A stretch of DNA of 64,000 nucleotides. Source: Halorubrum sodomense. GTDB lineage: Archaea; Halobacteriota; Halobacteria; Halobacteriales; Haloferacaceae. Location: assembly GCF_900111935.1 (NCBI RefSeq), contig NZ_FOYN01000003.1:186001-250000 (forward strand), in the 5' to 3' direction. The position numbers and the translations under genes are program-made. The notes beneath the pieces were generated by a model, which was not told the DNA's origin, did not search any database, and saw only the letters and a program-made list of their open reading frames with translations. Within the stretch, counting starts at the first letter, position 1; each line of letters begins with the position of its first letter. Below are positions 8,614-36,400 of the stretch, piece after piece.

Positions 8614-8867
8614 GAGAACCGTGCGAGATTCGAATCAGAGAGCGGCGCGGGCTTCACTCCGTCTTGAAACCGGAAGTGGTTACGGTTCGCTTCGTCCGTC
8701 GATTTCCGCTCGGCGCCGCGCGTCGTCGGTGCTGACGCCCCGAACCGCAACACTACCGGTACCGGTCGCGGCCGCCGGATAACACCCGAGTCCGGTGACC
8801 CGTGGTAGCGCGTGCCGCATTATCTTTAACAGCGTTCCGACACATGTTCGTGGTAGGTGATACAGAC

Positions 8868-9467
8868 ATGAGCTACGAACTCGATCCGCTGCCGTACGAT
8901 TACGACGCGCTGGAACCGCACATCTCCGAGCAGGTGCTCGAATGGCATCACGACACCCACCATCAGGGGTACGTCAACGGCTGGAACTCGGCCGAAGAGA
9001 CGCTCGAAGAGAACCGTGAGAACCACGACTTCTCTTCGTCGGCCGGCGCCATCCGGAACGTGACCCACAACTCCTCGGGGCACATCCTCCACGACCTGTT
9101 CTGGCAGAACATGTCGCCGGAGGGCGGCGACGAGCCCGAGGGCGCGCTCGCGGACCGCATCGCAGAGGACTTCGGCTCGTACGAGGCCTGGAAGGGCGAG
9201 TTCGAAGCCGCTGCGGGCAACGCGAGCGGCTGGGCGCTGCTGGTGTACGACACGTTCTCGAACCAGCTCCGCAACGTCGTGGTCGACAAGCACGACCAGG
9301 GCGCGGTCTGGGGCGGTCATCCCATCCTCGCGCTGGACGTCTGGGAGCACTCCTACTACCACGACTACGGGCCGGCTCGCGGCGAGTTCGTCGACAACTT
9401 CTTCGAGGTCGTCGACTGGGAGGAGCCGTCGTCCCGCTACGAGCAGGCCGTCGAGCTGTTCGAGTAA
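8868..9467 (+). CDS. sod: Superoxide dismutase, Mn/Fe family
   Basis: The 199-residue protein dismutates superoxide in the cytoplasm. Metal ligands are recognisable: His in EWHHDTHHQGYVNGWN, His in NSSGHILHDLFWQNM, and Asp and His in LDVWEHSYYHDY. The length is typical of haloarchaeal Mn enzymes, and the Gln/Gly pattern around GGHP suggests Mn use. The start MSYELDPLPYDYDALEP matches the family N-terminus. An AT-rich ATTATCTTTAAC (about 8819-8830) is a possible TATA region, leaving a short leader. Confidence 0.95.
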   Translation: MSYELDPLPYDYDALEPHISEQVLEWHHDTHHQGYVNGWNSAEETLEENRENHDFSSSAGAIRNVTHNSSGHILHDLFWQNMSPEGGDEPEGALADRIAEDFGSYEAWKGEFEAAAGNASGWALLVYDTFSNQLRNVVVDKHDQGAVWGGHPILALDVWEHSYYHDYGPARGEFVDNFFEVVDWEEPSSRYEQAVELFE

Positions 9468-9586: not shown

Positions 9587-9904
9587 GGTGAACACCTCCA
9601 AAGCCCCGGCCGCGAGGACTCGCGCGACTCGCTGCGGTCCTCGGTCGGTCGCTTCGCTCCCTCCCTGCGGTCCTTCCGTCGTCGTGCTTCGCCCTCGCGG
9701 CAGCGTGGCGCGACGCGCCACGGGCAGCCGGCGGCGAAGCCGCCGGCGACTGCCCCTCTGAGTCCCGCCCCGCACAGCACCGCCCCGCGCCTCACGCCTC
9801 CCCAGCCTCGTCGGCCGGTCTCCGCTTCGCTCCGACCGGCCGACTCCCTCGCACGGGCTCCTCGCAGCCGCCTTCGGCGGCCGCTCGGAGGCACGCGCCA
9901 CCGC
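9587..9904. repeat. Dispersed palindrome-rich intergenic element, copy 1
   Basis: This fills most of the gene-free 9468-9978 stretch. It shares ordered conserved blocks with 30995-31350: GGTGAAC(A/G)CCTCCAAAGCCCC at the start, ACTGCCCC(T/C)TTGAGT-like and CCCGCCCCGCACAGC in the middle, CTCACGCCTCCCCAGCCTCG, TCCGCTTCGCTCC, and GGCACGCGCCACCGC at the end. The sequence between blocks differs but is rich in perfect palindromes. No open frame here looks coding. It may be a non-autonomous mobile element or a structured RNA gene. Confidence 0.75.
9702..9750. repeat. Composite double-hairpin module (copy 1 element)
   Basis: The layout is AGC, a hairpin with arms GTGGCGCG (single A between arms), a GGGCAG spacer, a hairpin with 9-bp arms GCCGGCGGC and loop GAA, then CGAC. 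The same layout with different but still perfectly complementary arms recurs twice at 31198-31289. Two further variable-arm hairpins lie in this element: 10-bp arms TCGGCCGGTC around TCCGCTTCGCTCC (9811-9843) and arms GCCGCC around TTC (9867-9881). Confidence 0.75.
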
Positions 9905-15700: not shown

Positions 15701-16561
15701 TCAGTAGTTCTTGAAAAGCAGCGCGCGCACGTCGTCTTTCGTCCGCGCCGTCTCGACGCTCCCGTCAGGGAGGTCGACCTCGTACCGCGCGTCGCCGTCC
15801 GCCTCCCGCCACTTGTCGCCGTGTGTGTCGAGGAGGCTCATCATCGCGTCCAGTTGGCCGGCGCCGCCGTCGTCGCTGTCGTCGGCCGCGTCGTCTTCGG
15901 TCGCGTCGTCTCCGGTCGCGTCGCCCTCGACCGCGTCATCTCCGGTCGCGTCGTCTTCGGTCGCGTCGTCTTCGGTCGCGTCGTCTCCGGTCGCGTCGCC
16001 CTCGACCGCGTCATCTCCGGTCGCGTCGTCTTCGGTCGCGTCGTCTTCGGTCGCGTCGTCTCCGGTCGCGTCGCCCTCGACCGCGTCGTCTTCCTCCGCG
16101 GAGTTCTCTCCGTCACCGGCGGGTTCAGCCGCGTCGAGGCCGATATCGACGCGCGCGAAGGGGTCGGCGGCGAGGCGTTCGGCCGCGTCCAGGATCGCGT
16201 CGATCAGGTCGTCCTTCGTCATCTCGCTGCGTCCCGCGACGTCGAAGGCGGTCGCGATGTCGGAGAGGTCCATCGGGTCCTCCGGATCGGGGTCGCTGCG
16301 CCGCCGGTTCCGCGCCGCGAGGAGTTCGCGGGCGCGGTCGCGGTCGAAGGGATCGGCGTCGGGCGTCTCGTCGCCGCCACCGTCGCGCGTCGGCTCCGCG
16401 ACGCGGTCGGCGTCGTCGACGGCGTCCGCGAGGTCGAGCAGGTACGCGAGCGCGTCCTCGCGGTCGACGGAGGCGTACGGGCCGGCGTGGGCCGCTGCCA
16501 GCTCCTCGCGGAGCGCTTCGATCCGGTCCGCGTGATCGTCGGTGATGTCGAGCGTGGGCAT
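15701..16561 (-). CDS. Acidic protein with 5-residue repeat tract
   Basis: The 286-residue protein has three parts. The N-terminal region (MPTLDITDDHADRIEALREELAA...) is predicted helical with a SAP/HeH-like DLSDIATAFDVAGRSEMTKDDLIDAILDAAE at about residues 97-127. The central acidic linker (about residues 156-225) is made of 5-residue units such as DDATE, DDATG and DDAVE. The C-terminal domain of about 60 residues (LDAMMSLLDTHGDKWREADGDARYEVDLPDGSVETART...) ends in FKNY. A nucleic-acid-associated role is possible from the SAP-like segment, but that is inference. Confidence 0.65.
   Translation of the reverse strand: MPTLDITDDHADRIEALREELAAAHAGPYASVDREDALAYLLDLADAVDDADRVAEPTRDGGGDETPDADPFDRDRARELLAARNRRRSDPDPEDPMDLSDIATAFDVAGRSEMTKDDLIDAILDAAERLAADPFARVDIGLDAAEPAGDGENSAEEDDAVEGDATGDDATEDDATEDDATGDDAVEGDATGDDATEDDATEDDATGDDAVEGDATGDDATEDDAADDSDDGGAGQLDAMMSLLDTHGDKWREADGDARYEVDLPDGSVETARTKDDVRALLFKNY
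15886..16095. repeat. 15-bp minisatellite with 75-bp higher-order unit
   Basis: Fourteen consecutive 15-bp units of the type TCGCGTCGTCTTCGG run through the coding sequence. A 75-bp superunit of five variants is repeated (15901-15975 and 15976-16050) with a partial third copy from 16051. The period is a multiple of three, so length changes keep the frame and only lengthen the acidic linker. Confidence 0.9.
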
Positions 16562-28872: not shown

Positions 28873-29571
28873 GTGACGCCGCTGTACCACGACCTCTCGG
28901 GCGAGACGGTGGTCGTCTTCGGCGGCGGCGCCGTCGGCTCGCGGAAGGCGAAGGGGTTCGACGAGGCGGCGCAGGTCGTCGTCGTCAGCCCCGAGTTCGA
29001 CGAGCGGCTGCGCTCGCCCGCGGACGAGCGCGAGGCAGACGAGCGCGAGGCGGCCGACGCCGCGGACGGGCCGGCCGTCGAACTGGTCCGCGCCGCCCCG
29101 GACGCGGACGCCGTCACAGACTGGATCGATCGGTTCGACCCGGCGCTCGCGGTCGCCGCGACCGACGACGCCGCGGTCAACGCCGCCGTGGAGGCGGCCG
29201 CGCTCGACCGGGGGATCTTGGTCAACCGGACCGACGTCTCGGGCGGCCGCGACCCCGGGAGCGTCGTGGTGCCCGCGACGATCGAGGACGATCCGGTGAC
29301 CGTGGCGCTCTCGACGGGGGGAACGAGCCCCGCGCTCGCCAAGGCGCTGCGCGAGCGGATCGAGGCCGAGATCGAGGGAGCCGGCGCGATGGCGGCGCTC
29401 TCGGGGGAGATCCGCGAGGAGCTGAAAGACGAGGGCGTCGCCCCCGAAACGCGTCGGGAAGCGGTCCGGCGCGTTGTCAGGTCGCGGGGGGTTTGGAAGG
29501 GTTTACAAAAGGGGAGATCCAACGGACGGCAAGAGGCCGACACCGTGATCGAGGAGGTACTCAACCGATGA
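28873..29571 (+). CDS. Precorrin-2 dehydrogenase/sirohydrochlorin ferrochelatase
   Basis: This 232-residue NAD-dependent enzyme is similar to the N-terminal part of CysG and to Met8p. TPLYHDLSGETVVVFGGGAVGSRKAKGF is the Rossmann start. AVAATDDAAVNAAVEAAA and LVNRTDVSGGRDPGSVVVPATIEDDPVTVALSTGGTSPALAKALRERIE follow. It oxidises precorrin-2 to sirohydrochlorin and may insert iron. The start is GTG 28873. It overlaps hemA by an ATGA and sits 31 bp after ahbAB, so all three are probably one operon. Confidence 0.9.
   Translation: MTPLYHDLSGETVVVFGGGAVGSRKAKGFDEAAQVVVVSPEFDERLRSPADEREADEREAADAADGPAVELVRAAPDADAVTDWIDRFDPALAVAATDDAAVNAAVEAAALDRGILVNRTDVSGGRDPGSVVVPATIEDDPVTVALSTGGTSPALAKALRERIEAEIEGAGAMAALSGEIREELKDEGVAPETRREAVRRVVRSRGVWKGLQKGRSNGRQEADTVIEEVLNR
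29553..29558 (+). promoter_or_regulatory. Shine-Dalgarno site for hemA
   Basis: GGAGGT lies 9 nt before the hemA ATG, inside the end of the upstream coding sequence. It stands out because most genes in this window are leaderless, and it marks hemA as an internal operon gene. Confidence 0.6.
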
Positions 29572-30908
29572 GAGAGACGGGTGCGATCGCCGGCGTGAGC
29601 GTCGCCCACGCCGACGCGACCGTCGACGAGATCGAGGCCGCCGGCGGCGACGGCGTCCGCGCGACCGTCTCCGACCTGCTCGCTCGCGAAGGGGTCGAAG
29701 AGGCGTTCGCGGTGCAGACGTGTAACCGCTCGGAGGCGTACGTCGTCACCGATCGGACGGTCGACGGCACGACGGCGCTCTCGACGTTCGCGCCGGACGT
29801 CCGCGGCGGCGCAGTCCGCCGCCTCGACCACGAGGAGAGCCTGGAACACCTGATGCGCGTCGCCTCCGGGCTGGAGTCGCTCGTGCTCGGCGAGGACCAG
29901 ATCATCGGCCAGCTGCGCGAGGCCTACGAGGAGTCGAAGTCCGCGGGCGGCATCGGCCCCGTCCTCAAGGACGCCGTGACGAAGGCGCTCCACGTCGGCG
30001 AGCGCGCGCGGACGGAGACCGAGATCAACGAGGGCGTCGTCTCGCTCGGCTCCGCCGCCGTCCGACTGGCGGCCGGCGAGATCGACCTCACCGACGGGAC
30101 GGCCGTCGTCGTGGGCGCCGGCGAGATGGGGACGCTCGCGGCCCGCACGCTCGACGACACCGCCGTCTCGGGGATCGTCGTCGCGAACCGCACCGTCCCG
30201 CACGCGGAGTTCGTCGTCGAGGAGGTCAACACCCCCGCGGAGGCGGTGTCGCTGGCGGACCTCCCCGCGGTCATCCCGGACGCCGACCTCGTCGTCACCG
30301 CGACCGGGAGCCCCGACCTGATCGTTCACCCCTCGTACGTCGACGACGCCGGCCGGCTCGTCTGTATCGACATCGCGCAGCCCCGCGACGTCGACCCCGC
30401 GGCCGGCGCCCGCGAGGGCGTCACCGTTTACGACATCGACGACCTCGAAGACGTCACCCGCCGGACGAGGGAGAGCCGTGCGGAGGAGGCCCGAAGGGTC
30501 GAGTCTCTCATCGACGAGGAGCTCGACCGGGTTCTGGAGGCGTACAAGCGCAAGCGCGCCGACGACGCCATCTCGGCGATGTACGCCGGCGCGGACCGCG
30601 TGAAGGCGCGCGAGCTCGACCGCGCGATGTCGAAGCTGGAGGCCCAGGGCGAGCTGACCGACGAGCAGCGCGAGACGGTCGCGGACATGGCCGACGCCCT
30701 CGTCGGCCAGCTGCTCGCGGCGCCGACGCGCTCGCTTCGGGACGCCGCCGGCGAGGACGACTGGGAGACGATCCGCACGGCGCTTCAGCTGTTCGACCCC
30801 GAGTTCACGTCCCAGGCCGACGGGCCGGAAGAGGCGGACATCACCGACGCCGCGGCCGGCGGCCCCGACGCGATCCCCGACTCCGTCGTCGAGGAACTGG
30901 ACGACTAA
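29568..30908 (+). CDS. hemA: Glutamyl-tRNA reductase
   Basis: The 446-residue enzyme catalyses the first step of C5 tetrapyrrole synthesis, glutamyl-tRNA to glutamate-1-semialdehyde. The catalytic Cys is in FAVQTCNRSEAYVV. Also visible are ASGLESLVLGEDQIIGQLREAY, EINEGVVSLGSAAVRLA, the NADPH Rossmann motif VVVGAGEMGTLAARTL, and VVTATGSPD. The C-terminal dimerisation helix and an acidic tail end the protein. It is last in the ahbAB operon. Confidence 0.96.
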   Translation: MRETGAIAGVSVAHADATVDEIEAAGGDGVRATVSDLLAREGVEEAFAVQTCNRSEAYVVTDRTVDGTTALSTFAPDVRGGAVRRLDHEESLEHLMRVASGLESLVLGEDQIIGQLREAYEESKSAGGIGPVLKDAVTKALHVGERARTETEINEGVVSLGSAAVRLAAGEIDLTDGTAVVVGAGEMGTLAARTLDDTAVSGIVVANRTVPHAEFVVEEVNTPAEAVSLADLPAVIPDADLVVTATGSPDLIVHPSYVDDAGRLVCIDIAQPRDVDPAAGAREGVTVYDIDDLEDVTRRTRESRAEEARRVESLIDEELDRVLEAYKRKRADDAISAMYAGADRVKARELDRAMSKLEAQGELTDEQRETVADMADALVGQLLAAPTRSLRDAAGEDDWETIRTALQLFDPEFTSQADGPEEADITDAAAGGPDAIPDSVVEELDD

Positions 30909-30994: not shown

Positions 30995-31350
30995 GGTGAA
31001 CGCCTCCAAAGCCCCAGCCGCGAGGCGGGCGCACGCTCGCTGCGGTCCTCGTCGCTCACTCCGTTCGCTCCTGCGGTCCTTGCTTCGCCTGCGCCCGCCT
31101 CGCGACTGCCCCTTTGAGTCCCGCCCCGCACAGCGACCGCAGCCTCACGGCTCCCCAGCCTCGCGGCTCCCTCCGCTTCGCTCCGGTCGCCGCGTCCAGC
31201 GAGAATCGAAGATTCTCTGGCAGCCGGCGCGTCGCGCCGGCGACAGCGAGGCGCGACGCGCCTCTGGCAGTCGGGCGAAGCCCGACGACCTCGCGCGTGC
31301 GACTCGCGGCCTCCGCTTCGCTCCGGCCGCTCGCAGGCACGCGCCACCGC
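30995..31350. repeat. Dispersed palindrome-rich intergenic element, copy 2
   Basis: This occupies most of the gene-free 30909-31461 stretch. It shares the block order of 9587-9904: start block at 30995-31015, CCCCGCACAGC block ending about 31134, CTCACGGCTCCCCAGCCTCG at about 31144-31163, two TCCGCTTCGCTCC motifs (31172 and 31312), and end block GGCACGCGCCACCGC. A TATA-like CTTATAAG (30973-30980) precedes the start block by about 20 nt. The end CGTGTTCAC is the inverse of the start GTGAAC. Direct repeats ACTTGTAA flank it at 30916-30923 and 31358-31365. Confidence 0.78.
31198..31289. repeat. Two tandem double-hairpin modules in element copy 2
   Basis: Unit A (31198-31244) is AGC, arms GAGAATC with GAA loop, TGGCAG, arms GCCGGCGCG with T between, CGAC. 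Unit B (31245-31289) is AGC, arms GAGGCGCG with A between, TGGCAG, arms TCGGGC with GAA loop, CGAC. The spacers match the module at 9702-9750, while the arms differ and remain perfectly complementary. The module position within the element also differs between the two copies. Confidence 0.8.
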
Positions 31351-31461: not shown

Positions 31462-32238
31462 ATGAAGCTCTCCGAGTACGTCGACCGGCTCGACGACCGG
31501 CTCGACACGGCCGCGTACGCCGACGTCGACGCGAGCGCGAACGGGTTACAGGTGGGGCCGGACGACGCCGAGGTCGAGCGCGTCGCGTTCGCGGTCGACG
31601 CCGCGCGGGCGACGATCGAAGCCGCCGCGGACGCCGACGCGGACGTCCTCGTCGTCCACCACGGGCTCTCGTGGGGCGGCATCGAGCGCGTCACGGGCCG
31701 AACCCACGACCGGATCGCCGCGCTCGTCGAGCACGATATCGCGCTGTACGTCTCGCACCTCCCGCTCGACGGGCACCAGGAGCTGGGCAACGCGGCGGGT
31801 GTCGCCGAGGAGATCGGCCTGAGCGAGCGGGAGCCGTTCGGCGAGATGGGCCCGGCCACGGTCGGGACGATCGGCGAGACGACCGAGCCGCGGTCGGCGG
31901 CCGAGATCCGCGAGACGCTCGACGGGTTCGAGGGCCAGCCCGACGGCGAAGCGTCGCCGACCCGAGTGCTCGACTTCGGTCCCGACGAGATCGAGCGCGT
32001 CGCGGTCGTCACCGGCTCCGGGGTCGACTGGCTCGACGAGGCGGTCGCGGGCGACGCGGACGCGCTGGTCACCGGCGAGGGGAAACAGCAGGTCTACCAC
32101 GACGCGCGGGAAGCCGGAATCACGGTGTTCCTCGCCGGCCACTACGCCACGGAGACGTTCGGCGTCCGCGCGCTGGAGTCGCTGACCGCCGACTGGGGCG
32201 TCGAGACGACGTACCTCCCGCACCCGACCGGACTGTAG
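31462..32238 (+). CDS. Nif3-like dinuclear metal centre protein (GTP cyclohydrolase 1 type 2 family)
   Basis: This 258-residue member of the NIF3/DUF34 family has the metal-binding VLVVHHGLSWGG, ALYVSHLPLDGHQELGNA, and the late VTGEGKQQVYHDAREAGITVFLAGHYATETFGVRAL. The last contains a second His-rich site (GHxxTE). The family forms hexamers with two metals per subunit. Its activity is still uncertain, and names such as GTP cyclohydrolase are not proven here. It is followed by tgtA on the same strand after about 80 bp. Confidence 0.9.
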   Translation: MKLSEYVDRLDDRLDTAAYADVDASANGLQVGPDDAEVERVAFAVDAARATIEAAADADADVLVVHHGLSWGGIERVTGRTHDRIAALVEHDIALYVSHLPLDGHQELGNAAGVAEEIGLSEREPFGEMGPATVGTIGETTEPRSAAEIRETLDGFEGQPDGEASPTRVLDFGPDEIERVAVVTGSGVDWLDEAVAGDADALVTGEGKQQVYHDAREAGITVFLAGHYATETFGVRALESLTADWGVETTYLPHPTGL

Positions 32239-34842: not shown

Positions 34843-34940
34843 ACTACCCTACCCTACTCGCTCACGGCGCTGCCGTTCGTGGTTCGAGACGGGTCCGCCG
34901 TCTCGTCATCACGAGAGACGCGGCGCGTCTCTCGAACGAC
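34843..34940 (-). ncRNA. Candidate omega/re-RNA scaffold overlapping the 3' end of tnpB-1
   Basis: Three consecutive perfect hairpins occupy the last part of the tnpB-1 transcript: 11-bp arms CGAGAGACGCG (34912-34934), 8-bp arms CGAGACGG (34885-34905) and 4-bp arms CGGC (34865-34875). TnpB guide RNAs in IS200/IS605 elements are processed from exactly this 3' region, with the guide reading into flanking DNA. The boundary near 34843 and the guide (reading into the Nudix 3' end) are inferred. Confidence 0.5.
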
Positions 34941-36188
34941 TTCGTTGAGGGTAGGCCTTTCGCGTGGACTCCCGTTCTGGCCATCGCTGGCAGGCTCGTA
35001 ATCGCCGTTCACGTTCAACGTCCCGCGATTCAAGCGCACGTTTACGGGTGCGCCTCCGCCCGACGACGTTTGCGCCGAGCGGAGATGCTTCAGACCGATA
35101 TTCTTCGCCGCGTTGTAGTCGGCGTTCACTTCGTAACCGCACTTCTGGCAGCAGAACCGCGCTTGTGTCTCGCGGTTCTCTCGGAGTGTCGTCCCGCACT
35201 TGGAACATCGCTGGCTCGTGTACGCAGGACTCACCTGTTCAACCGAGATGCCGACCACCTCGGCTTTATACTCGACGTACTCGAACAGGCGTCGGAACGC
35301 CCACGCGTGGAACTTCTTGGCGTTCGCCATCCGCTCACGAATTCCGGTCAGGTTCTCGAACGCGATCACGTCACAGTCGTATTCGAGGGCTTCCGCGACG
35401 AGTTCTTTCGAGACAGTGTGTAAGAAGTGGTCGTAGCGTCCGGTCTCGGTGCGTCCAACTGACTGGATGGTCTCGTGAGCGGCCCGCGTCCCGAGCTGTT
35501 GAAGCGACCCGCGTCGCTTCTCGAACTCGCGGCGCCAATGGTTCAGCTCTGCCCCGTTCCAGAACGTGCCCGTGGAGGTGACGGCGACGTTTTCGATGCC
35601 GAGGTCAACGCCGAGGACTGTGTTGTGCCCGTCGTTGCCGTCGTCGGCAGTCTCGAACTCCGCGTCCGCCTTTGTGCGGACGTGAAGGTAGAACTCGCCG
35701 TCGCGGTAGTGTAGTTCTGCGCCCGTCACGTCGTAGTCGTCGTTGAACAGATACTCCGAATGAGGCGTCTCGCGATCCTCGTCGGGGAGAACATATCTGG
35801 CGGTGATACGTCCCTCGACGGTCGAAAGCGTCGCGTGGTCGTCGTTGAACGTCGCACATCGCATGTCGTAGACGAGCGTCGGGGCGGAGAAGCGCGGCTT
35901 TCCCGCGTAGTCACCCTGTTTCCAGCGTGCGACAACGCTCTGGACGGCGTCGGCGGCCTTGTTGCGAGCGTTCTGGACGAGATTCGCTTGGAGCCTCGTT
36001 TCGGCCCGCACGTCGTCGTAGGTTTCACGCTGGAGTTGGGCTTTGCTCGTCGTCTTGTACTCACCTCGCCAGGCGTGGTCAACGACGTAGTTGGCGGCCC
36101 ACAGGAACTCGGAGATGGTTTCGTGGAGGAGGGCGGCGTCGCCGTCGGCCACGTCGAGTTTGACGGGGACCGTGCGACGTACCTCCAT
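34854..36188 (-). CDS. tnpB: RNA-guided endonuclease TnpB (IS200/IS605, IS1341-type), no TnpA
   Basis: The 444-residue protein has an intact RuvC site: Asp in [13 protein letters not shown] (about residue 194), Glu in [13 protein letters not shown] (about 277), and Asp in [13 protein letters not shown] (about 355). The zinc finger has CSKCG and CCQKCG between the last two. [21 protein letters not shown] helices and the Ser/Arg-rich C-terminal tail ([14 protein letters not shown]) are as in haloarchaeal relatives. No tnpA transposase lies nearby. TnpB cuts DNA guided by RNA from the element's right end. It appears intact and possibly active. Confidence 0.92.
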
Positions 36189-36284: not shown

Positions 36285-36400
36285 TTTCCTCCCCGACCTA
36301 CTCGCTCCCTTCGGTCGCTCTCTCCTCACGGGCCGCAGGCCCGTTCGGATGGTCAGCGGGACCTACGGTCCCGCACGACTCGAGGTCGGGGGCTCCACCT
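36285..36400 (-). mobile_element. Orphan IS605-type right-end structure with expanded loop
   Basis: On the minus strand GGTGGAGCCCCCGACCT pairs (9 bp, CCCCGACCT/AGGTCGGGG at 36291-36299 and 36383-36391) with sequence followed by GGAGGAAACCGACA. This is the pattern of an IS605 right end (compare the end at 46358-46408). The usual short loop is replaced by about 83 bp containing two perfect hairpins: 7-bp arms ACGGGCC with loop GCA (36328-36344) and 8-bp arms GCGGGACC with loop TAC (36356-36374). No tnpB remains on its 5' side. The rest of the gap 36401-36498 holds a T-rich TATA-like patch for the next gene. Confidence 0.5.

Follow-up and report, generated by a model that had tools for sequence, protein, structure and literature searches.

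Small palindromic repeats that reside in-frame in unrelated conserved genes, where they add a peptide, have been described as Rickettsia palindromic elements (RPEs; PMC10969869). RPEs appear to be the nearest functional parallel to the haloarchaeal units reported here, which are also palindromic and are found in-frame in protein genes as well as in intergenic regions; by description the two are set apart, as RPEs are bacterial and measure approximately 150 bp, while the units are archaeal, 45-55 bp long and consist of two adjacent hairpins (H1 and H2) with freely varying arms. The nearest haloarchaeal relatives, judged by likeness, would be the PATEs of Haloquadratum walsbyi. According to the available part of the source (PMC3119063), PATEs and SMRs share with the units a haloarchaeal host, the lack of target duplication, near-terminal palindromes, the absence of a transposase and nesting in other repeats, but differ from them in a tie to ends of the IS605 type (PATEs) or in terminal inverted repeats and a length of approximately 80-110 bp (SMRs). 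Neither a 45-bp double hairpin nor in-frame residence in essential genes is described for PATEs or SMRs in that part of the source (PMC3119063).

The CGTC-tagged REP/REPIN sequences resemble the units in the combination of a hairpin with a short unpaired tag (the GTC side of H2), in a CCA-like tail and in the occurrence of dimers, and no dedicated transposase is known for CGTC-type palindromes (PMC3733652). They are, however, bacterial, with one hairpin per REP and family-constant stems that start with A-T pairs, and the units are without a flanking RAYT. Double-hairpin elements of fungal and sponge mitochondria likewise consist of two adjacent hairpins, are apparently mobile and are in some cases located in genes, but belong to organelle DNA, and in the sponge elements the stems are conserved while the loops vary (PMC2800124), whereas in the haloarchaeal units the arms vary and the constant bases lie outside the stems. 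In the full-text literature searched, mostly non-subscription papers, no description of the unit family was found.

The stretch analysed, 64,000 nucleotides of the Halorubrum sodomense genome (contig NZ_FOYN01000003.1, positions 186,001 to 250,000; hereafter the window), contains three double-hairpin cassettes. They quite probably belong to a family of mobile DNA elements that is spread throughout the haloarchaea and whose members are very small and non-autonomous.

Three units in the window and their host repeat

The layout AGC-hairpin-(T/G)GGCA-hairpin-GAC can be read directly from the sequence at 9702-9750, 31198-31244 and 31245-31289, all on the forward strand, which at base level bears out the three instances of AGC, hairpin, (T/G)GGCAG, hairpin, CGAC proposed in a preliminary description of the window. 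Unit A (9702-9750, 49 bp, AGC-H1-GGGCA-H2-GAC) starts with AGC at 9702-9704, ends with GAC at 9748-9750 and lies directly before the TGCCCC core of its host repeat; its H1 (9705-9721, GTGGCGC-GAC-GCGCCAC, loop GAC) lengthens by one C-G pair to 9704-9722 and its H2 extends over 9727-9747 (GCCGGCGGC-GAA-GCCGCCGGC, loop GAA). Unit B (31198-31244, 47 bp) is composed of AGC (31198-31200), the GAGAATC hairpin H1 (31201-31217, GAGAATC-GAA-GATTCTC, loop GAA), TGGCA, the GCCGGCGC hairpin H2 (31223-31241, GCCGGCGC-GTC-GCGCCGGC, loop GTC) and GAC. Directly after it in tandem follows unit C (31245-31289, 45 bp), the minimal form that is found inside genes too, with AGC at 31245-31247, H1 at 31248-31264 (GAGGCGC-GAC-GCGCCTC, loop GAC), TGGCA, H2 at 31270-31286 (GTCGGGC-GAA-GCCCGAC, loop GAA) and GAC. 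All six hairpins are perfect and every loop is 3 nt long; the 'single-base loops' of the earlier characterization stem from a different parsing. A unit is therewith defined as 5'-AGC-H1-(N)NGCA-H2-GAC-3', with a minimum of 45 bp and two adjacent perfect hairpins with 3-nt loops.

A search for double perfect hairpins (perfect arms of at least 7, loop of 3, gap of at most 6) returned units A, B and C and the B/C junction in the window, and none in 60 dinucleotide shuffles. Upon folding as single-stranded DNA, units A, B and C each form both hairpins, with z-scores of -4.7, -2.9 and -3.3, respectively. Two covariance models were used, R1 for the longer form and R2 for the 45-bp form; unit B scores 62.0 bits with R1 and unit A 48.6 bits with R2, while the 72.9 bits of unit C with R2 are to be read in the light of R2 having been built from four 45-bp units, unit C itself and three others.

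The units of the window are carried by two copies of a Halorubrum multi-stem intergenic repeat of approximately 300 bp. Host repeat 1 (9587-9904, forward strand) is flanked, as identified by Pfam, by sod (8802-9467) and a DUF5827 gene (9979) and has the core motif CTGCCCCTYTGAGTCCCGCCCC at 9750-9771. Host repeat 2 (30995-31350, forward strand), which gave 70 matches in its own genome when used as query, has hemA (29493-30908) on one side and a NIF3-family gene (31462-32238) on the other, again by Pfam. The core CTGCCCCTTTGAGTCCCGCCCC is present in approximately 95 copies in the 3.03-Mb H. sodomense genome, where the reversed pattern is absent, and in all 34 sampled congeners with 1 to 178 copies each, and it is rare elsewhere in the order. 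The alignment of copies drew on 94 further stretches around host-repeat matches of the same genome. Copies possess a long terminal stem, the arms of which covary as well. A known RNA or transposon was considered as the identity of the repeat, but neither a database match nor a paper was found; with approximately 95 copies in its own genome and presence in every sampled congener, the repeat seems undescribed and was kept as such.

Several further features accompany the host repeat. Direct repeats of approximately 57 bp, one to four in number and each with a TTATAAAT box and CTCCAAAGCCCCAGCC, often stand before it. In one ortholog of host repeat 2 (L106; G027:C1:841482-845184) the inner part of the main stem-loop, approximately 70 nt, is inverted with respect to the other copies examined. 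In another genome (L319; G001) the repeat is interrupted by what is probably an unrelated MITE, with inverted repeats (TAGTGATTACTGCGAATAG...CGCAGTAATCACTA) at its borders. Elsewhere in the window, an array of a 15-nt tandem repeat in 14 registers is located at 15814-16128, probably in a coding region.

Presence and absence of units across Halobacteriales

In H. sodomense, double hairpins occupy at least eight positions of the host repeat in both orientations, while the majority of host-repeat copies is empty of units. Oriented alike, these units share the signature (C)AGC-H1-NNNCA-H2-GAC and differ in arms and lengths; some stand in tandem, as B and C in the window, and others are nested, with a second double hairpin providing the linker in which they lie (L010, L030 and, in a histidine kinase, L130). 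Paralogous host repeats with a unit at the site of unit A exist, and the left neighbour of insertions in host repeats is TCC, GGC or AGC with the same unit boundary.

At the locus of host repeat 1, the orthologous repeat is without a unit in five congeners (G030, G017, G013, G007 and G061), has units at other sites in another five (G028, G033, G016, G021 and G025) and contains three units in tandem plus other double hairpins in G027, while about a dozen congeners possess a short intergenic region without the host repeat. At the locus of host repeat 2, the two units of H. sodomense correspond to one unit each, with other arms at the same site, in G017 and G021, to a unit at another site only in G033 and to none in G061; the orthologous intergenic region of G023 and G007 is without the host repeat altogether. 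This comparison of orthologous intergenic regions, suggested beforehand, finds whole units present or absent at both loci, which points to movement, and the proposal that the cassettes move independently of their parent elements also gains from the many sites occupied in paralogous repeats and from the clean empty sites in merA and in a GH15 gene. Movement of defined units is shown by genome comparison, although some of the spread at the same site among paralogous repeats may have come about when the repeat itself was duplicated or underwent gene conversion.

The family extends far beyond the host repeat. Searches with R1 recovered units outside host repeats too, some of them inside genes, and R2 matched 164 of 195 Halobacteriales genomes and 54 of 66 genera at E <= 0.01 (best E approximately 1e-19), where E-values of both models are rough and one weak match does not make a genome a carrier. 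Outside the order, a phylum-wide sample gave five single matches only, with E from 6e-4 to 0.01, near chance level; in IMG/VR the exact unit pattern was not found among viruses, nor was there a convincing phage match. In total, 99 distinct units of 45-55 bp were collected with 22 H1 arms and 17 H2 arms, 77 of them with both hairpins perfect. The covariance search envisaged in the preliminary description uncovered an order-wide family, and the result that would have refuted that description, a lack of further units with independent perfect arms, did not come about. Neither the order-wide spread nor the entry into coding genes could be seen from the material on which that description was based.

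The best matches from 28 other genomes, together with several from the own genome, were translated in the frames that run through the unit, and 22 of 23 gene-located loci proved to be read in one common frame, giving variants of SEGRSPSGNRTQSGD, with the unit in the GH15 gene as the lone antisense case. Many units are exact 45-bp in-frame inserts in conserved proteins such as ribosomal protein uL2, formate dehydrogenase, aconitase, merA and histidine kinases. The hosts recognized by Pfam comprise a merA-type reductase, acetyl-CoA synthetase, histidine kinases, CobN, a CBS/MaoC protein, formate dehydrogenase, beta-CASP RNases, uL2 (two families), DUF7095, aldehyde dehydrogenase, aconitase, a leucyl-tRNA synthetase-like protein and a PIN/ATPase, and in several host proteins the Pfam domain match spans the unit. 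Public plasmid records contain units under merA, aconitase, CobN, P-type ATPase, histidine kinase, ppsA and other annotations. The sole gap between the uL2 with a unit (L238) and Haloarcula L2P (1s72) is the exact 15-residue insertion, and formate dehydrogenase likewise shows this 15-residue gap; in the beta-CASP protein, for which the homolog is distant, the gap at the unit position is less exact. A PDB search with the bare insert peptide gave no meaningful match. In two histidine kinases of H. sodomense (L207 and L210), 45-bp units follow one another in the N-box region of the ATPase (SVEHGST...SGDSVEHG), and one of the two kinases has an additional unit nested inside a linker.

Two genes allow filled and empty sites to be compared. 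The GH15 gene is filled in H. sodomense, H. californiense and H. laminariae, while approximately 55 orthologs are empty. At the DNA level exactly 45 bp are inserted, and GTC stands at either border. Both hairpins of this unit are perfect in H. californiense; the H. sodomense copy has one mismatch and therefore decay occurs. In the case of merA, the filled genes are those of H. sodomense, Natrinema zhouii and Salinigranum rubrum, and merA of Halorubrum trapanicum is empty at the insertion position of H. sodomense, between GTCGAC and GACACG. Another, partly decayed unit is located at a second merA site on the Halorubrum trapanicum plasmid pCBA1232-02 (L286). No clear target-site duplication is present at the GH15 and merA junctions, where the cut is ambiguous by three bases because GAC stands at both the unit end and the target. 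Insertion takes place after a C, often after GAC.

Variation of arms and loops and alternative origins

Among 36 ungapped units, 99.4% of pairs form, compared with 33-45% in slid controls, and departures from the commonest pair affect both sides in 70 cells but a single side in only one. The 99 units, for which up to two mismatches per hairpin were allowed, contain 1500 Watson-Crick pairs, 9 G·T, 9 A·C and 10 others. Models and finders favour paired sequences, so perfect pairing is inflated and the pairing figures are weakened, but this search bias does not explain the balance of G·T and A·C and the flips of the loops. Among same-arm copies in which all three loop bases differ, 29 of 85 comparisons, drawn from related copies and hence not independent, have reverse-complement loops as compared to a random expectation of 1 in 27; the flipped pairs among same-arm, same-flank copies are GAA/TTC, GGA/TCC and GTA/TAC. 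Template switching is described as leaving just such traces, namely inverted loops and changes on both sides at once (PMC8794818). The equality of G·T and A·C is expected for a process on double-stranded DNA and not for selection on a single RNA strand and, together with the loop flips, therefore favours arm copying at the DNA level over RNA selection. The structure-directed copying considered from the outset is thus strengthened by the double changes and the reverse-complemented loops, while the initial emphasis on RNA is not sustained by the equal counts of G·T and A·C, nor by an Rfam scan of the window, which gave one tRNA and no other RNA family.

That the hairpins arose by chance in GC-rich DNA has next to no probability and is already refuted: while the genome is GC-rich and single 7-bp hairpins are frequent by chance (12.6 per shuffled window, with 21 observed in the window), the shuffles contain no double hairpin, identical constant bases recur in 99 units and clean empty sites exist in merA and GH15. 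A reading of the units as parts of a structured non-coding RNA encoded by the host repeat, with arms that covary by selection on the fold, is highly improbable. Arm covariation in the units and in the host-repeat stem, as well as TATA-like boxes approximately 30 bp before many host repeats, would agree with such an RNA, but units are found outside the repeat, within coding genes and in both orientations, their loops flip, the entire inner stem-loop of the repeat is inverted in one ortholog (L106), Rfam recognizes nothing besides the tRNA in the window, and G·U, which RNA selection should enrich, is not prominent in the ratio of G·T to A·C, 9 to 9 in the units and 30 to 25 in the host stem.

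More serious, if still doubtful, is the explanation that the units are minimal PATEs, in which only the ends of IS605-type transposons are left and which an IS200-type TnpA mobilizes in trans. The haloarchaeal PATEs lack target duplication and have palindromes close to their ends, and one reported form consists of the termini only and measures 52 bp (PMC3119063). In the window, a double hairpin of a second type (34885-34934, reverse strand, GTT-H-TGATGA-H-AACCACG) is located at the 3' end of a tnpB open reading frame (34854-36188, reverse strand); the same type occurs at another site in many host repeats, and the flanks are shared with the host-repeat copies L032, L046 and L026. A match at 36317-36379 (27.6 bits) on the 5' side of this tnpB, with an 11-nt linker, was not counted as a unit. 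With double hairpins near both ends of tnpB, one of them of the host-repeat type, a link to IS605-type elements may be entertained. Against the PATE explanation stand the H. sodomense genome, which has no Y1 transposase (PF01797, IS200-type TnpA), as is the case in 7 of 39 genus-sample genomes with the own included, the 20 congener TnpA genes, none of which has a unit within about 1.2 kb, and the eight own tnpB loci, one with a weak R1 match and none with the 45-bp model R2. Nor was a RAYT (Y1) gene flanked by units found in the own genome, the genus sample or the 20 TnpA loci; GTC beside H2 is nearly constant, CGTC is present in some copies only and GTAG beside H1 in few. Unlikely, in turn, is an origin without any transposase, in which microhomology template switching at replication forks, with GAC at both ends, is combined with gene conversion between repeats. 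In-gene units often follow GAC and end in GAC (merA, uL2, formate dehydrogenase and, on the other strand, GH15), and the histidine kinases show tandem 45-bp expansion, yet the boundary is unchanged in host repeats where the left neighbour is TCC, GGC or AGC and not GAC, and the same constant ends in 54 genera suggest recognition.

A putative mobile element and its consequences

In the preferred reading, the units form a family of non-autonomous mobile elements, and their hairpin ends, the lack of target duplication and insertion beside a short motif resemble IS200/IS605-type and REP elements. The findings on Y1 transposase, on the 20 TnpA loci and on the tnpB loci, which link no mobilizing enzyme to the units, count against this reading as well. 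The units would move as DNA, with recognition of the paired hairpins and of the short constant ends, and with an intermediate that is probably single-stranded and hairpin-folded as in those elements. Template switching during replication across the palindrome could copy one arm onto the other and give perfect arms, whereby both sides would change together and loops invert at times. Purifying selection would retain the harmless insertions, those in intergenic repeats or in frames that give a hydrophilic loop such as SEGRSPSGNRTQSGD. The units probably behave as nearly neutral parasites and at times provide new protein loops.

The full form of this reading, a haloarchaea-wide 45-bp element recognized by its structure through a putative enzyme, with palindrome-copied arms and in-frame 15-residue loops in core proteins including uL2, is evenly poised between acceptance and doubt; if true, the element would be to archaea what RPEs are to Rickettsia and would rank among the smallest mobile elements known. 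The enzyme, if found, would recognize shape more than sequence. In dozens of short palindromes the copying of arms and the inversion of loops are directly readable, which makes them suitable for testing template-switch models of compensatory change, and haloarchaeal gene annotation and protein comparison should expect 15-residue inserts. If true, the family would constitute an order-wide natural record of how peptides enter essential proteins, in which filled orthologs can be set against empty ones, and make protein-loop tolerance and the fate of selfish DNA in genes testable in tractable archaea.
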